A stretch of DNA of 39,835 nt, from contig QQUN01000006.1 of NCBI GenBank assembly GCA_008501585.1, forward strand, positions 1 through 39,835, given 5' to 3'. Below are positions 15,210 through 23,360 of the stretch, piece by piece. The notes under the pieces are model-generated. The model was not told the origin of the DNA. It did not search any database and saw nothing but the letters and a program-made list of their open reading frames with translations. The translations under genes and the position numbers were made by a program. Position 1 is the stretch's first letter; the number at the start of each line of letters is the position of its first letter. The stretch is from Pseudomonadota bacterium. GTDB lineage: Bacteria > Pseudomonadota > Gammaproteobacteria > Burkholderiales > Rhodocyclaceae.

Positions 15210-15223
15210 TTGATTTGAATCAA
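15210..15223 (+). promoter_or_regulatory. Perfect FNR/ANR/DNR-type site upstream of the flavocytochrome operon
   Basis: TTGAT-TTGA-ATCAA matches all ten conserved positions of the FNR-family consensus. Such sites are bound by the oxygen sensor FNR/ANR and by NO-responsive relatives (DNR, NnrR). The stretch around it is AT-rich against the local background. It is 180 bases upstream of the first codon. A site centred at -41.5 would place the RNA start near 15258, but no good -10 is visible at 15246-15251; CTTAGA at 15252-15257 is an imperfect alternative. Confidence 0.8.
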
Positions 15224-15403
15224 AAAGTTACAGCAACTGGCACAACCCTCGCTTAGAGCTGGGTGAGCACGCCAACGGCGGTGTGCGTTGGGCAGGATAC
15301 GGACAAAGGCGTCCATTTTCAGGCAGGGCCGAGCACGGCGCCGCCTGGAGATGTGGCGCCTTTTGTTGTTTCTGCGGTGTGAGCGATTCGGAGGCAGACA
15401 GGC
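15224..15403 (+). promoter_or_regulatory. Long structured leader before the flavocytochrome gene
   Basis: Roughly 145 bases of untranslated leader if transcription starts near 15258. It holds a GGAC/GTCC hairpin around 15301-15314 and a terminator-like element: GGCGCC (15337-15342), a 12-base spacer, GGCGCC (15355-15360), then TTTTGTTGTTT. This could be an attenuator that ends most transcripts under some condition. I compared it by eye with c-di-GMP, fluoride and molybdenum cofactor riboswitch motifs and found no convincing match. No small ORF with a good ribosome site stands out. Confidence 0.4.
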
Positions 15404-17359
15404 ATGCAGCCAGATCCGGCGAATGCAGACAACCCGGTGGTGGTGGTGGGCAGCGGCCCCGCCGGCCTTCGCGTGGTGCAGGCCATCGGCCGGCTCGACC
15501 CCGCGCGGCCGGTGGTGTGGTACGGCGACGAGCCGTGGGCGCCCTACAACCGGATCAAGCTGTCCTCGCTGCTGGCCGGCGACACCCGCTGGGAGGCGCT
15601 CACCGCCGAGTCGCCGGTGCGGGAGGCGGTCGACACACGCTTCGGCTGCCGCATCGCGCGCATCGACCGCGCCGCCGCCGAGGTGATCGATGCGCAGGGC
15701 GTGCGCCAGTCGTACGGCACCCTGGTGCTCGCCACCGGCTCGCGCGCCCATGTGCCGGACATCCCCGGCGCCAAGCTGCCCGGCGTGTTTACCTTCCGCG
15801 ACCTGAACGACGCCCAGTGCCTGCAGGCGCGAAGCGTGCGCAGCCGGGTGACGGTGGTGATCGGCGGCGGCCTGCTCGGGCTGGAGGCGGCCCGCGCGGT
15901 GCGCCGCTACAACACCCGGGTGATCGTCATCGAGCATGCCGACCGCCTGATGCCGCGCCAGCTCGACGCCGAGGGGGCCGCCTGGCTGGCCAAGTCGGTG
16001 AGCGAAGCGGGCATCGAGGTGCGCGTGTCGGCGGCGGTGAAGGGCATCGAGGGCGGGCGCGAGGTGTCCGGCGTGCTGCTGCGCACGGGCGAAGTGATCG
16101 CCTGTGACACGGTGATCGTCGCCACCGGCATCCGCCCCAATATCGAACTGGCGCTGCGCGCCGGCTTGCCGGTCGGGCGCGGCATCAAGATCGACGACGC
16201 CACCCTCACCGCCGACCCGCGCATCCATGCGGTCGGCGAGTGCGCCGAGCACCGCGGCGAGGTGTACGGGCTGATTGCGCCGGGGCTGGAGCAGGCTGCG
16301 GTGGCGGCCAACCGCATCTGCGGTGGCGAGGCGGTGTATGAAGGCAGCGTCGCCGCTACCCGGCTCAAGGTGATGGGCTGCGCGGTGTTCAGCATCGGTG
16401 AGCTCGATCGTCAGGGAGCGGCCGATACCGCCCGCGCCACCGCTTTTGCCGACCCCGACGGCGACGGCTATCGCCGCGTGGTGGTGCGCCAGGGGCGGGT
16501 GGTGGGCGCCCAGGCGGTCGGGCCGTGGCCGGAGATGTCGCGGGTGCAGGAGGCGGTGCGCAGTGGCCGTCGCGTCTGGCCCTGGCAGCGCCTGCGCTTT
16601 GCCCGCATCGGCCAGCTCTGGCCCGACAGCGACGCCGGCGATCTGCGCTTCTGGCCGGCCGAGGCCACGGTGTGCAACTGCACCGGTGTCACCCGCGGCC
16701 AGCTCGAGGGGGCGCTCGGGCGCGGCTGTCGCAGCGTCGAGGCGCTGTGTGCCGAGACCGGTGCGGGCAGCGTCTGCGGCAGCTGCCGCCCCTTGCTCAG
16801 CGAGCTGTCCGGCGCTGATGCCCTGCCGGCCGTCCCCGGCTGGCGGGCGCTGGCCGGGGTCGGTGCGGCGGCGCTGATGCTCGCCCTGGCCTACCTGCTT
16901 TTCGCCATCCCCTTCCCCGACACCGCCGAACTGGCCTGGCGCTGGGACGTGATCTGGCGTGACAGCGTGTGGAAGCAGGCCAGCGGTTACACCGCGCTCG
17001 GGGCCATGGCGCTGCTGGCGGTGATCGGCCTGCGCAAGCGCTGGCCGCGCCTGGCCGCGCTGTGGGATTTCGCCGGCTGGCGCGTGGTGCATGGCGTGCT
17101 CGGCGCGCTGCTGGTGGCGGTGATGCTGCTGCACACCGGCGGGCGCTTCGGCGACCAGCTCGATCGCGTGATGAGCGTGATGGCGGTGGCGGCGATTCTC
17201 TCCGGCACGGTGATCGCGCTGGTGGTGTCGCGCCAGCAGGACCTGGCGCCAGCCCTGGTGCGCCGCGTGCAGCGCAGCGCCACCTGGGTGCACATCCTCA
17301 CCCTGTGGCCGCTGCCGGTGCTGCTCGGGGTGCACATTCTCAAGACCTACTATTTCTGA
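15404..17359 (+). CDS. FAD/NAD(P)H oxidoreductase-[2Fe-2S]-membrane dihaem b fusion
   Basis: 651 residues in three parts. Residues 10-415 are a pyridine nucleotide-disulfide-type flavoprotein like the N-terminus of nitrite reductase NirB: FAD motif GSGPAG (16-21), APYNRIKLS, NAD(P)H motif GGGLLG (154-159), and ATGIRPN. Residues 422-465 are a BFD-like [2Fe-2S] domain with C424-x-C426 and C458-x-x-C461. Residues 480-651 hold about five membrane helices, absent from NirB. Two of these carry histidines 14 residues apart (H563/H577 and H630/H644), the arrangement that binds two stacked b haems in ferric-reductase-type domains. Inferred function: electrons pass from NAD(P)H through FAD, iron-sulfur and two haems across the membrane to the multihaem cytochrome encoded seven bases downstream. 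No sirohaem domain is present, so it is not itself a nitrite reductase. FNR-type site upstream. Confidence 0.88.
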   Translation: MQPDPANADNPVVVVGSGPAGLRVVQAIGRLDPARPVVWYGDEPWAPYNRIKLSSLLAGDTRWEALTAESPVREAVDTRFGCRIARIDRAAAEVIDAQGVRQSYGTLVLATGSRAHVPDIPGAKLPGVFTFRDLNDAQCLQARSVRSRVTVVIGGGLLGLEAARAVRRYNTRVIVIEHADRLMPRQLDAEGAAWLAKSVSEAGIEVRVSAAVKGIEGGREVSGVLLRTGEVIACDTVIVATGIRPNIELALRAGLPVGRGIKIDDATLTADPRIHAVGECAEHRGEVYGLIAPGLEQAAVAANRICGGEAVYEGSVAATRLKVMGCAVFSIGELDRQGAADTARATAFADPDGDGYRRVVVRQGRVVGAQAVGPWPEMSRVQEAVRSGRRVWPWQRLRFARIGQLWPDSDAGDLRFWPAEATVCNCTGVTRGQLEGALGRGCRSVEALCAETGAGSVCGSCRPLLSELSGADALPAVPGWRALAGVGAAALMLALAYLLFAIPFPDTAELAWRWDVIWRDSVWKQASGYTALGAMALLAVIGLRKRWPRLAALWDFAGWRVVHGVLGALLVAVMLLHTGGRFGDQLDRVMSVMAVAAILSGTVIALVVSRQQDLAPALVRRVQRSATWVHILTLWPLPVLLGVHILKTYYF

Positions 17360-17366
17360 GGCGCGG

Positions 17367-18842
17367 ATGAAAAAGAAAACCAATCTGCGCTGGTGGGGCC
17401 TGTGGCTGGTGATCTCGGTTGCCACCGCCGGCGCCGTCTATGCCGCCCTCGACAGCCTCGACAACCCGCGCCCCGGTGCGGCCGACCTGGTGCTGCGTTC
17501 CTGGCTGCTGCCGGGGCAGACCAGCCATGGCCACTACCAGATCGAACTGGCCTGTACCGCCTGTCATGCCGGCGCCTTTCCCAGCCGCGACGATGTGCAG
17601 GAAAAATGCGAGTCCTGTCATGCCAAGGACCTGAAAGCGGCCGACGACAGCCACCCGCGGGCCAAATTCACCGATCCGCGCAACGCCGACCGCGCCGCCC
17701 GGCTCGACGCCACCTACTGCGTCACCTGTCATGTCGAGCACAAGCCGGGCATCACCCAGCGTGCCGGCGTGACCCTGCCGCGCGACTACTGCGTGATCTG
17801 CCACAAGGACATCGCCGAGGACCGCCCCAGCCACACCGGCATGGCCTTTACCAGCTGTGCCGACGCCGGCTGCCACAACTACCACGACAACACCGCGCTG
17901 TATGAAGACTTCCTGGTGCGCCATGCCGGTGTCGGCCGCATGCAGGACGACCCGACCGTGCTGGCACGCAATCTGCGCGAGGTCATCGAGGAATTGGGCG
18001 ACTACCCCAGCGAGACCTTCCCGCCGGTGACGCTGGCGCGCGCCGAGGCCGACGCCGGTGACGCGCTGCCGGCCAGCGCCGCCGTCCATGCGGACTGGGC
18101 CGCCTCGGCGCATGCGCAATCCGGCGTCAATTGCAGCGCCTGCCATGTGCCGGTGGCCGAGCAGGGGGGCGACCCGGCCGCCGCGACCTGGATCGCCAAA
18201 CCGACCGAGACCGCCTGCGTGCAGTGCCATGGCCCCGAGGTGAACGGCTTCCTTGCCGGCAAGCACGGCATGCGGCTCAAGGCCGGCTTGCCGGCCATGA
18301 CGCCCGCCCAGGCCCGCTACCCGATGAAGCCCGAACGCCAGCACGAGGCGCTCGGCTGCACCAGCTGCCACGGCAGCCACCGCTTCGACACCGCGCAGGC
18401 CGCGGTCAAGGCCTGCGCCAGCTGTCATGACGACGAGCACACCCGCGCCTACTTCGCCTCGCCGCATGCCCGCACCGTGGCCGCCGTGGCGCGTGGCGAG
18501 GCGGCGCCGGAGACGGCGGTGACCTGCGCCACCTGCCACCTGCCGCGCGTGGCCTACGACACGCCCGACTTCGTGCGCCGCACCCTGGTCGACCACGCCC
18601 AGGGCGCCAACCTGACGCCGCCGGTCAAGATGGCGCGCCAGGTGTGCCTGGCCTGCCACGGCCTGGGCTACGCCATCGACGCCCTCGCCGACGCGCCCCT
18701 GCGCGCCGAGAACTTCCCGCATGCGCCGACCCGCCGGGTGCGCAGCATCGACATGGCCGTCACCCGCGAGGCCGAAGCGCGCGAGGCGCGCGCCGCGCAG
18801 GAGCGCGCCGAGTCGGTCGCGACCGAGGGCGGATCCTCATGA
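17367..18842 (+). CDS. Membrane-anchored undecahaem cytochrome c with HAO-like C-terminal half
   Basis: 491 residues. An uncleaved N-terminal anchor (about 9-27) leads to a periplasmic domain with ten CxxCH motifs (cysteines 63, 81, 118, 142, 256, 284, 331, 350, 387, 427) and one unusual CX4CH (C164-ADAG-C169-H170). The first five haem sites lie within 63-170 and resemble small tetra/pentahaem cytochrome c3 or NrfB-like modules. The last six lie within 256-431, after an 85-residue haem-free linker, and the pattern CTSCHGSH, CASCHDDEHTR, SPHART, CATCHLPR and CLACHGLG resembles hydroxylamine oxidoreductase-like octahaem proteins. No C-terminal anchor follows. It probably receives electrons from the preceding flavocytochrome and reduces, or oxidises, a small nitrogen or sulfur compound. 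Catalytic identity is unproven. Confidence 0.85.
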   Translation: MKKKTNLRWWGLWLVISVATAGAVYAALDSLDNPRPGAADLVLRSWLLPGQTSHGHYQIELACTACHAGAFPSRDDVQEKCESCHAKDLKAADDSHPRAKFTDPRNADRAARLDATYCVTCHVEHKPGITQRAGVTLPRDYCVICHKDIAEDRPSHTGMAFTSCADAGCHNYHDNTALYEDFLVRHAGVGRMQDDPTVLARNLREVIEELGDYPSETFPPVTLARAEADAGDALPASAAVHADWAASAHAQSGVNCSACHVPVAEQGGDPAAATWIAKPTETACVQCHGPEVNGFLAGKHGMRLKAGLPAMTPAQARYPMKPERQHEALGCTSCHGSHRFDTAQAAVKACASCHDDEHTRAYFASPHARTVAAVARGEAAPETAVTCATCHLPRVAYDTPDFVRRTLVDHAQGANLTPPVKMARQVCLACHGLGYAIDALADAPLRAENFPHAPTRRVRSIDMAVTREAEAREARAAQERAESVATEGGSS

Positions 18843-18891
18843 GCGCGCCGGCCACCCCTGTTTCGTTTCACCCCTGCAAGGAGAAGAGAGC

Positions 18892-19458
18892 ATGAAGAGC
18901 ACACATGTCAAACTGCCCCTCGGTGCCGCGGCCATCGCCGTCGGTATTGGCTGTGCTACGCCGGCGATGGCCGCCGGCTGGAGCTACCAGCAGATCGCCG
19001 ATGCGCTGCATGCGGTGATGGAATCCGACCGCACGGTCTACACCCGGTTGATCGTCAACCGCCTGCAGAACCAGGAAAAGGTGATCAAGGCCAGCGAGCA
19101 CTGGAAGGACGAGAAGGCGCTGGTGCTGCCGGCGCAGATGTTCCGCTTCGGCGCCGAGATGGTGGCCGAGAAGAACGCCGGCTTCACCTACGCGCTGCTC
19201 TCCGAATGGCCGGTGAACAAGCAGAACGCGCCCAAGACCGAGGTCGAGACCGAAGGCCTGAAGGCCATCGCCGCGACCGGCAAGCCCTTCTACAAGGAGG
19301 AGACGCTGGGCGGCAAGACCTACTTCACCGCGGTGTACCCGGACAAGGCCGTGGCCAAGGCCTGCATCAGCTGTCACAACGACCACAAGGACAGCCCGCG
19401 CACCGACTTCAAGATGGGCGACGTGATGGGCGGCGTGGTGTTGCGCCTGCCGATGTAG
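18892..19458 (+). CDS. Tll0287-like (DUF3365) monohaem c-type protein
   Basis: 188 residues: signal peptide (about 1-28, ending AMA-AGW), a helical PAS/GAF-like ligand domain (residues about 35-155) with the family phrase LLSEWPVNKQNAP, and a single haem motif C158ISCH162 near the C-terminus. DUF3365 domains occur alone, as here, or as sensor modules in kinases; cyanobacterial Tll0287 binds haem c and may sense redox state or a gas. An AAGGAGAAGAG ribosome site precedes the ATG. It lies 49 bases after the multihaem gene. It could be a soluble electron carrier or redox sensor for that complex. Its stop codon forms part of the following palindromic repeat. Confidence 0.85.
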   Translation: MKSTHVKLPLGAAAIAVGIGCATPAMAAGWSYQQIADALHAVMESDRTVYTRLIVNRLQNQEKVIKASEHWKDEKALVLPAQMFRFGAEMVAEKNAGFTYALLSEWPVNKQNAPKTEVETEGLKAIAATGKPFYKEETLGGKTYFTAVYPDKAVAKACISCHNDHKDSPRTDFKMGDVMGGVVLRLPM

Positions 19459-19520
19459 GGCGGGCTTCAGCCCGCCAAAGCCCTCACGCCGCGGCGATGG
19501 CGGGTTGAAACCCGCCCTAC
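19455..19520. repeat. REP/BIME-like double hairpin
   Basis: GTAGGGCGGG (19455-19464) and CCCGCCCTAC (19511-19520) are perfect 10-base outer inverted repeats. Inside are two hairpins, GGCGGGC-TTCA-GCCCGCC (19459-19476) and GGCGGGT-TGAA-ACCCGCC (19499-19516). Elements of this form are frequent intergenic repeats in GC-rich beta- and gammaproteobacteria. Placed within an operon it may act as a partial terminator or message stabiliser between the DUF3365 and cytochrome genes. Confidence 0.8.
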
Positions 19521-19555
19521 GTGGCCGCGACAAGCGGGCCCGACAGGAGATGACG

Positions 19556-19912
19556 ATGTTCCTCAGAAAATCCCTCGGCTTGGCGGTGGCCCTGCTCGGT
19601 GCCGCCTCGGCCCACGCCGGACGCCCGCCGGAGCTGGCCGGCTTCGAGCGCGGCCGCGCGGTGTGGCTGGGCACCTGTCAGCTCTGCCACGCGGAGCCGG
19701 CCACCGGCGCGCCGCAGCTGGGCGATGCCGCGGCCTGGGCGCCGCGCGCGGCGCAGGGCAAGGCCGTGCTCTACCAGCACGCACTGGAAGGCTTCATGGG
19801 CCCGCTCGGCGATGAGATGCCGGCCCGCGGAGCCAACCCGGCGCTGTCCGACGACGAGGTGAAGGCGGCCGTGGACTACATGGTCCGGGCCGCCCAGCCC
19901 GTCAAACCCTAG
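19556..19912 (+). CDS. Small monohaem cytochrome c
   Basis: 118 residues: signal peptide (about 1-22, ending AHA-GRP) and one class I cytochrome c domain with haem motif C41QLCH45 and a likely axial methionine in GDEMPARG. The spacing and the final ALSDDEVKAAVDYMVRAA helix are of the cytochrome c5 or small c-type kind. Start at 19556 is preferred over the ATG two codons earlier because AGGAG is six bases upstream. It probably shuttles electrons in the periplasm to or from the multihaem cytochrome of this operon. Confidence 0.88.
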   Translation: MFLRKSLGLAVALLGAASAHAGRPPELAGFERGRAVWLGTCQLCHAEPATGAPQLGDAAAWAPRAAQGKAVLYQHALEGFMGPLGDEMPARGANPALSDDEVKAAVDYMVRAAQPVKP

Positions 19913-19944
19913 TGTGTTCCGGAATTCAATCAAGGAGTGACGAC

Positions 19945-20328
19945 ATGACGACGACCGTGGAAATGAGCCTGTTTGACAAGATCGGCGGTGCGCCCGCCGT
20001 GGATGCCGCCGTGGACAAGTTCTACGACAAGGTGCTGGCCGACGAGCGCATCAAGCGCTTCTTCATCAACACCGACATGGCCAAGCAGCGCCAGCACCAG
20101 AAGGCCTTCCTCACCTACGCCTTCGGCGGCCAGCCCGGCTACAACGGCCGCGGCATGCGCGAGGCGCACAAGCCGCTGGTGATGCGCCTGGGGCTGAACG
20201 ACACCCACTTCGATGCGGTGGTCGAGAACCTCGCCACCACGCTCAGCGAACTGGGGGTGAGCGACGAGTTGATCGGTGAGGTGGCGAAGATTGCCGAGTC
20301 GATCCGCGACGACGTGCTGTGTCGTTGA
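19945..20328 (+). CDS. Group 1 truncated haemoglobin (trHbN)
   Basis: 127 residues. The proximal histidine is H75 in MREAHKPLV, the B10 tyrosine is Y27 in FYDKVLAD, and the glycine motifs YAFGGQPGYNGRG between E and F helices mark the 2-over-2 globin fold of group 1. Known relatives convert NO and oxygen to nitrate or bind NO in the cytoplasm. AAGGAG lies eight bases before the ATG. Last gene of the FNR-type operon, 32 bases after the cytochrome. Its presence suggests that the operon deals with NO or produces it as a side product. An ORF start 33 bases upstream is rejected for lack of a ribosome site. Confidence 0.93.
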   Translation: MTTTVEMSLFDKIGGAPAVDAAVDKFYDKVLADERIKRFFINTDMAKQRQHQKAFLTYAFGGQPGYNGRGMREAHKPLVMRLGLNDTHFDAVVENLATTLSELGVSDELIGEVAKIAESIRDDVLCR

Positions 20329-20377: not shown

Positions 20378-21454
20378 TCAGGCGGGCGGGCCGTCGATGG
20401 CGTCGCGCCGCACCCGCTTGACGTTGCACAGCAACTCGTAGGCGATGGTGCCGGCGGCCTGTGCCACGGTGTTGACCGACACGTTGCGCCCCCACAGCTC
20501 GACCGGGCTGCCCACATGGGCGGCCGGCAGGGCGGTGAGGTCGACCGTCATCATGTCCATCGAGACCCGGCCGATGACGCGGGTCAGCTGGCCGTCGACC
20601 GCCACCGGCGTGCCGGTGGGGGTGATGCGCGGGTAGCCGTCGGCATAGCCCATGGCGACCAGGCCGACACGGGTCGGCGCCTCGGCCACGAATCGGCCGC
20701 CATAGCCCAGCGCCTCGCCGGGGGCGAGGTCGCGGATGTTCATGATCGCGCTCGACAGCGTCATCACCGGCTGCAGACCGTGGTCGTCGGTGGGCATCGG
20801 GTCGGCGCCGTAGAGCAGGATGCCGGGGCGCGCCCAGTCGCGATGCGCGGCCGGCCAGGCCAGTACGCCGCCGGAGTTGCACAGGCTGCGCTCGCCGGGC
20901 AGCCCGGCGGTGGCGCGGTCAAAGGTGGCGATCTGCTCGGCGGTGGTGGCCACGTCCGGCTCGTCGGCGCGGGCGAAGTGGGTCATCAGCACGATGTCGC
21001 CGACCTGCGGCAGGGCGCGCAGGCGGGCATGGGCGGCGGCATAGTCGGCCGGTGCGATGCCAGCGCGGCGCATGCCGCTGTCCATCTTCAGCCACACGGT
21101 GAGCGGGCGGATGCTGCGATGCGCCTCGAGCAGGGCGATCTGTTCGGCGTTGTGCACCACCATCCACAGATCGTGGGCGGTGGCGTGGGCGAGGTCGTCC
21201 GGGCCGAAGGCGCCTTCGAGCACCAGGATCGGCTGGCGGATACCGGCGTCGCGCAGCTCCAGTGCCTCTTCGACAATGGCCACCGCGAAGGCGTCGGCCG
21301 TGTCGGCCAGCGCGCGGGCGCACAGGATGGCGCCATGGCCATAGGCATTGGCCTTGATCACCGCCAGTGCCCGCCCGCCATGGCGCTGTCGTGCCAGGCG
21401 GTAGTTGTGCCGCAGGGCGGCAAGATCAATGCGGGCAATGGCGGGACGACTCAC
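20378..21454 (-). CDS. dadX: Alanine racemase, catabolic type
   Basis: 358 residues. The PLP lysine is K34 in [10 protein letters not shown], the second catalytic base is Y251 in ALGYGGRF, and [15 protein letters not shown] and MGYADGYPR are standard alanine racemase segments. The enzyme converts L- to D-alanine. Its ATG overlaps the stop of the D-amino acid dehydrogenase gene by four bases; together they degrade L-alanine to pyruvate, hence the catabolic (DadX) assignment. It may also supply D-alanine for peptidoglycan if no second racemase exists. Cytoplasmic. Confidence 0.93.
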
Positions 21455-22761
21455 ACGGCACTCCGGTGGGCGCCCTGAAGCTGCGGCGCCAGGTGGGGCC
21501 GGTCGGGGCGGGTGTAGCGGTCCAGCGACAGGCCATCGGTGGAGATGTCCGGATGGCGGTCGGTGGCCAGATCGGCCACGAGCTTGCCCGATCCGCAGGC
21601 CATCGTCCAGCCCAGGGTGCCGTGGCCGGTGTTGAGGTAGAGGTTGGCGTAGTCGGTGGCGCCGACGATCGGCGTGGAGTCCGGCGTCATCGGGCGCAGG
21701 CCGGTCCAGAACTCGGCGGCCGGTACATCGCCGCTGCCGGGGAAGAGGTCATTGACCACCATTTCCAGGGTCTGGCGGCGGCGCGGGTTGAGCGACAGGT
21801 CGAAGCCGGCCAGCTCGGCCATGCCGCCGACGCGGATGCGGTTGTCGAAGCGGGTGAGGGCGACCTTGTAGGTTTCGTCGAGCACGGTGGACACCGGCGC
21901 CGCGTCGGCATTCGTCATCGGGATGGTCAGCGAGTAGCCCTTGACCGGATACACCGGCAGCTTGAGGCCGAGCGGGGCGAGGAAGTCGCGGCTGTAGCTG
22001 CCGAAGGCCAGCACGTAGCGGTCGGCGCGCAGCACCTCGTTGCCGACGCGCACGCCGGTAATGCGATGGTTCTCGGTGAGCAGGCCGGCCACGTCCTGGC
22101 CGAAGCGGAAGTCGACACCCAGCTCGGTGGTCATCTCGGCTAGGCGGCGGGTGAACAGATGGCAGTCGCCGGTCTCGTCGTTGGGCAGGCGCAGGCCGCC
22201 GGCGAGCTTGTCGCGGGCATGGGCCAGCGCGGGTTCGGCGCCGGCAAGCTGGTCGCGGTCGAGCAGCTCGAAGGGCACGCCGAAGTCCATCAGCACCTCG
22301 ATGTCGCGCTTGGCGGCATCGACCTGCGCCTGGGTGCGGAACAGCTGCAGCGTGCCGCGGGTGCGGCTCTCGTAGTCGATGCCGGTATCGGCGCGCAGGC
22401 CGCGCAGGCAGTCGCGGCTGTACTCGGCCAGGCGCATCATGCGCGACTTGTTGACGGTGTAGCGCTCGGCGGCGCAGTTGCGCAGCATGGCCATCATCCA
22501 TTCGAGCTGGAAGCGCGTGCCGTCCGGGCGGATGGCCAGCGGCGCATGGCGCTGGAACAGCCACTTCATGGCCTTGAGCGGGATGCCCGGTGCAGCCCAG
22601 GGGGTGGAGTAGCCCGGCGAGACCTGGCCGGCGTTGGCGTAGCTGGTCTCCAGTGCCGGGCCGGGCTGGCGCTCGAGCACGGTGACGCGGGCGCCGTTGC
22701 GGGCGAGATAGTACGCGGTGGAGGTACCGATGACACCGCTTCCGAGTACGATAACGTCCAT
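21451..22761 (-). CDS. dadA: D-amino acid dehydrogenase small subunit
   Basis: 436 residues. The FAD motif GSGVIG (7-12) opens the protein, followed by [37 protein letters not shown] and, near the C-terminus, [15 protein letters not shown] and [16 protein letters not shown], all diagnostic of DadA. It oxidises D-alanine and other D-amino acids to keto acids and passes electrons to the respiratory quinone pool at the inner membrane. First gene of dadA-dadX, divergent from an Lrp-type regulator across an AT-rich region. Confidence 0.95.
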
Positions 22762-22895
22762 GACCTGTCTCCTGATGGGTAGCTTTGTTGATTCGCTACT
22801 TTATTGGCTATATGGCAGTGAATATCACTTTGTTTTCCGGCATATATTTTAGAAAATCACTTTTTTTGGCCGGGTGGCTGTCGTGGAGGAGTGAA
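22762..22895. promoter_or_regulatory. AT-rich divergent control region between dadA and the Lrp gene
   Basis: This 134-base region is strikingly AT-rich for the window. It contains the perfect palindrome AGTGA-ATA-TCACT (22817-22829), then TTTTCCGGCATATATTTTAGAAAAT and a T-run at 22860-22867. Lrp proteins bind and wrap such AT-rich sites, and dad genes are a known Lrp target in enterobacteria and pseudomonads. It probably holds both promoters and the operator sites for autoregulation and dad induction by alanine. Confidence 0.6.
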
Positions 22896-23360
22896 ATGCG
22901 CGAACTGGATCGCCTCGATCGGAAAATCCTCGATCTGTTGCAGAAAAACGGTCGCCTGCCGATGACCGAACTGGCCGACAAGGTGGGCTTGTCGAGCACG
23001 CCGTGCACCGAGCGGGTGCGCCGCCTCGAGCGCGAAGGGGTGATCACGGGCTACCATGCCCATGTCAGCCCCGCGGCGCTGGGCAAACCCTTGCTGGTGT
23101 TTGTCGAGATCAAGCTGTCGGCCAAGTCGGGCGACGTGTTCGACAAGGTCAAGAAGGAGATGATGTTCATCCCCGAGGTGATGGAATGCCACCTGGTGTC
23201 GGGCGAGTTCGACTACCTGATCAAGGCGCGCATCTCGCAGATGACCGAGTACCGCCGGCTGCTTGGCAACATCCTGCTCAAACTGCCGGGGGCGGCCGAG
23301 TCGCGCAGCTCGGTGGTGATGGAAGAGATCAAGGAAACCCTGTTTCTGCCGACAGACTGA
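22896..23360 (+). CDS. Lrp/AsnC-family regulator of the dad genes
   Basis: 154 residues: a helix-turn-helix (about 5-55, with LDRKILDLLQKNGRLPMTELA and LSSTPCTERVRRLE) and a C-terminal RAM ligand domain (about 65-145, with VMECHLVSGEFDYLIK). The length and ligand-domain spelling match global-type Lrp or the DadR/BkdR group, which sense alanine or branched-chain amino acids. The ATG at 22896 has GGAGGAG upstream; the longer reading to 22785 would run through the AT-rich operator region. Divergence from dadA makes local control of D-amino acid catabolism the natural role. Confidence 0.92.
   Translation: MRELDRLDRKILDLLQKNGRLPMTELADKVGLSSTPCTERVRRLEREGVITGYHAHVSPAALGKPLLVFVEIKLSAKSGDVFDKVKKEMMFIPEVMECHLVSGEFDYLIKARISQMTEYRRLLGNILLKLPGAAESRSSVVMEEIKETLFLPTD

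Follow-up and report, generated by a model that had tools for sequence, protein, structure and literature searches.

A conserved flavoprotein, 11-haem cytochrome and sCache_heme gene set with nitrate-assimilation-type control signals in a Rhodocyclaceae bacterium

The window analysed here is a 39,835-nucleotide stretch of DNA (contig QQUN01000006.1, positions 1 to 39,835, of assembly GCA_008501585.1) from a member of the Rhodocyclaceae, and the subject is a five-gene set on it, A to E, that may encode an electron-transfer chain across the membrane. A sequence-only reading had described these genes as an anaerobic operon behind a perfect FNR-type site. The five open reading frames (ORFs) do lie on the plus strand at the positions first noted, with gaps of 7, 49, 97 and 32 bases between them:

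15404-17359, plus strand: gene A, a NirB-type flavin adenine dinucleotide (FAD)/NAD(P)H flavoprotein with a BFD [2Fe-2S] domain (16667-16804) and a predicted five-helix membrane tail (16841-17356; H563/H577 and H630/H644)
17367-18842, plus strand: gene B, a putative membrane-anchored 11-haem cytochrome c with an N-terminal anchor
18892-19458, plus strand: gene C, a stand-alone sCache_heme (DUF3365/Tll0287) haem c protein
19550 (or 19556)-19912, plus strand: gene D, a small class I cytochrome c, accessory
19945-20328, plus strand: gene E, a group I truncated haemoglobin, GlbN-like

Gene D carries a cytochrome c domain and gene E a bacterial globin domain in Pfam. The closest solved match to E is cyanobacterial GlbN (E 1.6e-44), as is appropriate for a group I truncated haemoglobin, and Chlamydomonas THB1 is matched as well.

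Relatives of this gene set were collected through B. A scan of an 84,980-species collection with the B alignment yielded 258 relatives, of which the closest 80 were kept; with the window and the loci L007 and L010 these make 83 loci, and a gene was counted as a neighbour when it lay within 5.5 kb of B. A was found in all 83 loci and C in 81, the contig stopping first in the remaining two (L042 and L067). In four loci (L064, L072, L088 and L093) C stands upstream of A. Pairwise distances across 71 loci are also correlated (A-B r 0.74, A-C 0.67, B-C 0.62), the best of 500 permutations for A-B reaching 0.15. Clearly, the gene set recurs beyond chance, with A and C near B wherever the contig reaches, and the A-B-C triad is the core of the system. 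The concern that the flavocytochrome and multihaem genes might rarely co-occur was not borne out, as A, B and C stand together in every evaluable locus of the 83. All five genes are present in four relatives of the window's own genus; over the wider collection A-B-C is kept, and D and a globin lie near B in 32 and 58 of the 83 loci, respectively (for the globin, 52 of 73 where at least 2.5 kb of downstream sequence is available). The globin is of the flavohaemoglobin type in 45 loci and truncated in 13, both together occurring in none of the 83, and the filling of one slot by two distinct globin families argues for function.

Within the window's genus, B occurs in 5 of 10 genomes, including the four relatives just mentioned, and it was absent from the 27 searched genomes of other genera in the family. 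Across the order, B has matches at E 0.001 in 14 of 300 genomes; only five of these, the window's own genome among them, are strong. The best 80 of the 258 relatives include Gammaproteobacteria, Alphaproteobacteria, Planctomycetes, Verrucomicrobia, Lentisphaerae, Polyangium and Dadabacteria, and a comparison of B with annotated plasmids gave no match. Because the distribution is so patchy, horizontal transfer is suggested, judging from occurrence rather than from a tree.

The strongest new evidence is the control region upstream of A. The features read there are given below, the NtrC box, the IHF-like site and the sigma-54 promoter being judged against their usual consensus and the ANTAR loops against the rule in PMC3369931:

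15146-15162, no strand assigned: perfect NtrC-type enhancer box, TGCAC-N7-GTGCA
15210-15223, no strand assigned: TTGAT-N4-ATCAA (TTGATTTGAATCAA), an FNR-type match with 0 mismatches
15218-15230, plus strand: IHF-like site AATCAAAAAGTTA, found by eye, overlapping the right half of the FNR match
15238-15253, plus strand: sigma-54 (-24/-12) promoter TGGCACAACCCTCGCT, by motif score
15239-15315, plus strand: match to the Rfam narK RNA (RF03032), 37.5 bits, E 1.5e-5, covering the promoter and both hairpins
15267-15286, plus strand: ANTAR hairpin 1, loop AACGGC (15274-15279; A1, G4)
15301-15314, plus strand: ANTAR hairpin 2, loop AAAGGC (15305-15310; A1, G4)
15302-15366, plus strand: intrinsic terminator overlapping hairpin 2, from the fold

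The arrangement expected of a sigma-54/NtrC promoter, GG-N10-GC with an NtrC box upstream, is thus present in the window at the level of sequence. Among the 75 loci with at least 200 bases upstream of A, a sigma-54 motif of at least 9 of 12 was found in 53, against 5.1 expected from mononucleotide shuffles (the controls for FNR, sigma-54 and NtrC sites preserve single-base content only, and those for the hairpin-plus-terminator structure preserve dinucleotides). A perfect NtrC box occurs in four (the window, L007, L024 and L040; 0.03 expected), three of which belong to one genus, while a box of 9 or 10 of 10 occurs in nine (0.98 expected), five of them from the window's genus. The IHF-like site appears by eye to be kept in L007, L024 and L025.

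Downstream of the promoter lies a candidate leader of the ANTAR (NasT/NasR) kind. In passages of PMC3369931, the ANTAR antiterminator target is described as two small hairpins whose hexaloops bear A at position 1 and G at position 4. The window has two such hairpins, a terminator over the second, and two ANTAR genes elsewhere in its genome; the leader (15256-15375) folds at -63.2 kcal/mol with a z of -5.2. An automatic and strict hairpin-plus-terminator test, requiring a T-run of five, was passed by 14 of the 75 loci, against 0.2 in dinucleotide shuffles. Among the hosts that carry an ANTAR gene, 5 of 23 have such a strict leader; among those that carry none, 0 of 27 do (p 0.016). ANTAR genes were found in 0 of 14 control genomes. 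The narK RNA match in the window (whole-genome E 2.8e-5) falls short of the Rfam gathering threshold of 43.2 bits, and a scan of seven relatives' loci at that threshold gave no match. In Pseudomonas benzenivorans, a narK RNA scoring 44.7 bits, above gathering, lies about 150 bp before the flavoprotein match. A literature search on narK RNA found no paper.

Comparison with the rest of the window's genome ties these signals to nitrate. The sole other narK RNA match with E below 0.01 lies between a NasT gene and nrtABC, where a sigma-54 promoter, hairpins and a terminator can be read directly behind nasT; one of the two ANTAR genes stands directly before this leader. The NtrC box scores 9 of 10 before nrtA and 10 of 10 before nirB, and nirB has a sigma-54 motif with its perfect box and no ANTAR-type leader that could be seen. 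In this genome, the operon is very probably under nitrate-assimilation regulation, to judge from the NtrC, sigma-54 and NasT-type signals. The label "anaerobic" in the sequence-only reading found no support, the control region instead carrying an NtrC-type box and a sigma-54 promoter, together with a NasT-type leader in common with nrtABC.

Protein A combines Pyr_redox_2, Rubredoxin_C and BFD [2Fe-2S] domains (Pfam) with a membrane tail. Its residues 12-468 align to residues 1-464 of NirB, the large subunit of NADH nitrite reductase (TIGR02374), but the C-terminal siroheme domain is absent, with the membrane tail in its place, and the score of 368 does not reach the curated cut-off of 578; A as a NirB was accordingly rejected. 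The predicted model has a mean pLDDT of 89.6, and the tail consists of five helices. H563, H577, H630 and H644 form two HX13H pairs, conserved in 99-100% of 80 A sequences, on predicted helices 556-578 and 616-650 (the latter being 616-634 plus 637-650, with a break at 635-636). Histidine pairs 14 apart on two helices are the usual sign of two stacked haems b. The same arrangement, two helices each with paired haem-ligand histidines 14 apart, is found in the membrane dihaem b proteins of the NOX, ferric reductase and YedZ type, and by alignment and predicted helices the A tail shares it. Unlike those proteins, A takes its flavin domain from another family, and its tail hits Pfam Ferric_reduct only at E 0.24 (11.9 of 28 bits), below the cut-off. 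In a Foldseek search with A, the 50 matches shown all cover the flavoprotein half, and none covers the tail.

The form of A varies among the relatives. In the Polyangium locus (L081:4149-7955) it has 1269 residues, with about 600 residues lacking a good Pfam match between BFD and the membrane part, and ORFs of similar length were seen in L085 and L087. In a member of the Dadabacteria (L057:2167-2790) the match is restricted to the membrane part, 207 residues, adjoining B and C, while in a planctomycete (L091:5777-10110) A and C each fall into two ORFs, through frameshifts or sequencing errors. A distant cousin set occurs in the same order as the window (L011:8714-11204). There, a dihaem-b-like membrane protein of 287 residues is distantly related to the A tail (hhalign probability 94.7), and an adjoining multihaem cytochrome of 536 residues is distantly related to B (96.7). 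This set has no fused flavoprotein, and cytochrome c maturation-like genes are seen nearby by eye.

Protein B has 11 haem motifs in the window (10 CXXCH and one CX4CH) and 11 in 87 of 87 homologues. Eleven further histidines are invariant (56, 96, 125, 156, 173, 249, 300, 338, 358, 367 and 410), so that every haem could be bis-histidine ligated. B could thus be a wire rather than an enzyme, to judge from its sequence, although it may also be catalytic, since profile comparison relates its C-terminal half to TvNiR and NrfA, and fold comparison, weakly, to an HAO-type protein. The profile matches to the octahaem nitrite reductase TvNiR (E 4e-11) and to NrfA (E 2e-10) run over short stretches, and the best Foldseek match is an HAO-type protein over 194 columns at a weak E of 0.015. 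This local similarity falls on the C-terminal six haems of B, which differs from all three enzymes in having 11 haems, a membrane anchor and no CXXCK. That catalytic motif occurs in 0 of 87 sequences, so B was rejected as an NrfA-type or octahaem nitrite reductase by this mark, and with 11 motifs throughout it was rejected on haem count as an HAO, which has eight haems with a cross-linked P460. The earlier description of B as HAO-like accordingly holds as a weak likeness over part of the protein and does not extend to a full match.

Protein C belongs to the sCache_heme family (PF11845; 75.9 bits, cut-off 24.1), with CXXCH in all 84 C sequences and many invariant residues, including H165 and M83. 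No cysteine outside CXXCH reaches 90% conservation in these sequences. The Tll0287-like redox subtype with its axial cysteine ligand was therefore set aside for C, by cysteine conservation rather than by a solved structure that would place the ligand. A single-sequence search of solved structures gave a chance hit (E 0.2) and a profile search gave none. Passages of a 2026 preprint (PMC12889525) report that a signalling sCache_heme member without an axial cysteine binds nitric oxide (NO) tightly, and that a stand-alone member from P. putida, with the axial cysteine, binds it weakly. C resembles the family treated there in being a stand-alone member with CXXCH; it differs in lacking a conserved cysteine outside this motif and in belonging to a fixed redox operon, which those passages do not mention. 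Because C is stand-alone and yet lacks the axial cysteine, its behaviour towards NO cannot be deduced from either case.

The surroundings of A-B-C point in part to nitrate. NrtA/NasS-like genes are found in 17 of the 83 loci, NasT-like genes in 12 (that of L010, on the opposite strand, is uncertain) and porin-like genes in 13. NrtB-like matches number 17, two of which (the window and L007) lie about 10 kb away and are possibly other transporters. One locus, L044, joins NrtABC-like genes, a porin, A-B-C, a globin, a NarK-like transporter, a phosphatase/kinase and a NasC-like nitrate reductase, although the NarK and NasC matches do not reach their curated cut-offs (253 of 312 and 827 of 1100 bits). 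Read by eye, the coordinates place A within 35 kb of a NirB or NIR_SIR gene on the same contig in 8 of 50 hosts. NirB is over its cut-off in 32 of 50 hosts and in 2 of 14 control genomes. A NIR_SIR protein is present in 17 of the 18 hosts without such a NirB; since sulfite reductases belong to this family too, 11 of the 14 control genomes also have one. The idea that A-B-C replaces nitrite reductase in NirB-less hosts is weakened by these 17 proteins, some of which may be sulfite reductases. A-B-C accompanies nitrate assimilation in part of its range and is probably no substitute for nitrite reductase.

Six loci also have a Fer2/FAD/NAD reductase gene, placed after the truncated globin in five (L054, L056, L060, L077 and L090) and further downstream of C in L073; five of the six were confirmed by family models, and the gene product is perhaps a globin reductase. 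The family scan of neighbours, which took 138 of the 199 listed (L024-L026 and others left out), found few repeats beyond the porin, the ANTAR regulator, the Fer2/FAD reductase and the nitrate-binding protein. In the window itself, the stretch between C and D (19459-19545) contains a palindromic repeat, GGCGGGTTGAAACCCGCC, whose pattern with two free central bases has 17 sites across the genome. On the minus strand at 20378-22761, candidate genes for an alanine racemase and a D-amino-acid dehydrogenase were picked out by eye and are apparently unrelated to the operon; an Lrp-type regulator (22785-23360, by eye) adjoins them.

The computed gene set and its conservation, the haem-motif and histidine counts, the control region and the links to nitrate genes are consistent with a transmembrane electron chain from NAD(P)H to the periplasm, linked to nitrate assimilation, accompanied by a globin and likely serving NO or nitrite arising from assimilation. 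We put the probability of this reading at about 0.5. Nitrogen shortage (through NtrC and sigma-54) together with nitrate or nitrite (through NasT freeing the terminator) would cause the wire to be made. In the cytoplasm, NAD(P)H would pass electrons to the FAD and then to the [2Fe-2S] centre of A, and the two stacked haems b of the tail (H563-H630 and H577-H644) would move them outward. The 11 haems of the anchored B, if loaded and placed as the motifs and predicted topology suggest, would accept these electrons and hand them to C and, where present, to D. The chain would most likely reduce NO or nitrite that leaks into the periplasm as nitrate is assimilated, and the globin would clear NO in the cytoplasm. 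The transmembrane respiratory or detoxification complex of the sequence-only reading survives here as a membrane-spanning electron-transfer set with a nitrogen-oxide link and a globin, and has lost its anaerobic, FNR-controlled part.

No description of the A-B-C set was found in the titles and abstracts of the openly licensed papers that the searches listed, or in passages of PMC12175321, PMC8940962 and PMC9230427. One of the closest known systems is narK-bjgb-flp-nasC of Bradyrhizobium japonicum. According to passages of PMC4724949, this NasT-controlled nitrate-assimilation operon likewise carries a single-domain globin and an FAD/NAD(P)H flavoprotein; the globin protects against NO, and mutants are NO-sensitive. 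Those passages mention no membrane-fused flavoprotein, multihaem cytochrome or sCache_heme. It is conceivable, as a more tentative step, that the triad represents a new class of transmembrane redox enzyme, in which a quinone-independent NAD(P)H dehydrogenase (NirB-type with a NOX-like dihaem b part) feeds an 11-haem periplasmic wire ending in an sCache_heme that reduces or binds NO or nitrite; nitrate assimilation in several phyla would then include a part that has been overlooked.

Several observations weigh against the proposed nitrate-assimilation-linked chain. All loci were recovered through B, from two peptide patterns, so that relatives without those peptides escape. Only a minority of loci have nitrate genes beside A-B-C, and no globin was seen nearby in 25 of the 83. 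The window itself fails the strict leader test, as does L024, the T-runs being short, and so do 18 of the 23 ANTAR-bearing hosts, while 27 of 50 hosts have no ANTAR gene. Only 8 of 50 hosts have a narK RNA match that reaches E 0.05, and a single one (P. benzenivorans) passes the gathering threshold; at E 1, matches appear in 6 of 14 control genomes, none over the cut-off. Finally, NO binding is weak in the stand-alone sCache_heme of P. putida, although that protein has an axial cysteine which C lacks.

Among other explanations, the one that follows the sequence-only reading is an FNR-controlled anaerobic respiratory or denitrification-linked chain. The FNR-type site noted in that reading is indeed present without mismatch at 15210-15223; it is not conserved. 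Perfect boxes occur in 2 of the 75 loci, both of the window's genus, and boxes one base off in three more, against 0.05 and 0.8 in shuffles. The match is more than chance within this genus, yet by these counts it is probably not a conserved control element: 70 of the 75 loci lack such a box whereas 53 have a sigma-54 motif, and it is missing even in the close relatives L007, L024 and L010. FNR as the main switch was therefore rejected for want of conservation across the loci. The leader common to the operon and nrtABC also speaks against such a chain, as does the lifestyle of several hosts, which we take to be aerobes, and we regard it as improbable. Even harder to credit is a flow in the inward direction, with C and B drawing electrons from a periplasmic donor and A using them to reduce NAD(P)+ or to support the reduction of nitrate or nitrite. 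The sequence does not reveal the direction of flow, but NirB-type modules as a rule oxidise NAD(P)H, and for the likely periplasmic donors the reduction of NAD+ would be uphill.

A rival closer to the proposed chain makes B itself the periplasmic nitrite (or NO) reductase, returning leaked nitrite to ammonium for assimilation, with A as its dedicated NAD(P)H feed. The TvNiR, NrfA and HAO-type matches described above favour it. The lack of CXXCK throughout does not, and the haem that aligns, weakly, with the lysine-bearing haem of TvNiR reads CXXCH. Position 241, presumably near the catalytic histidine of NrfA, is histidine in only 17 of 87 sequences, and 11 haems with 11 invariant histidines permit all to be bis-histidine ligated. 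Most hosts, moreover, have a NirB or a NIR_SIR protein, although the latter is as noted also common in controls, and overall we consider this rival unlikely. Distinctly less likely is that the system is chiefly a globin-based NO dioxygenase, in which A would reduce the globin in the cytoplasm while B and C would serve as an overflow or redox sensor. A globin is present in most loci, and single-domain globins require a reductase, a role proposed for Flp in B. japonicum (PMC4724949). However, the globin is kept less strictly than B and C (in loci that were found through B), and six loci bring a Fer2/FAD reductase of their own.

Nitrate assimilation is usually described as a pathway of the cytoplasm, made up of transport, a nitrate reductase and a siroheme nitrite reductase. 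If the proposed nitrate-assimilation-linked chain is correct, a conserved, identically controlled route for NAD(P)H electrons to the periplasm would supply this pathway with a missing arm, probably for NO or nitrite. It would also supply a setting for the stand-alone sCache_heme proteins and the globins found beside nitrate-assimilation genes.

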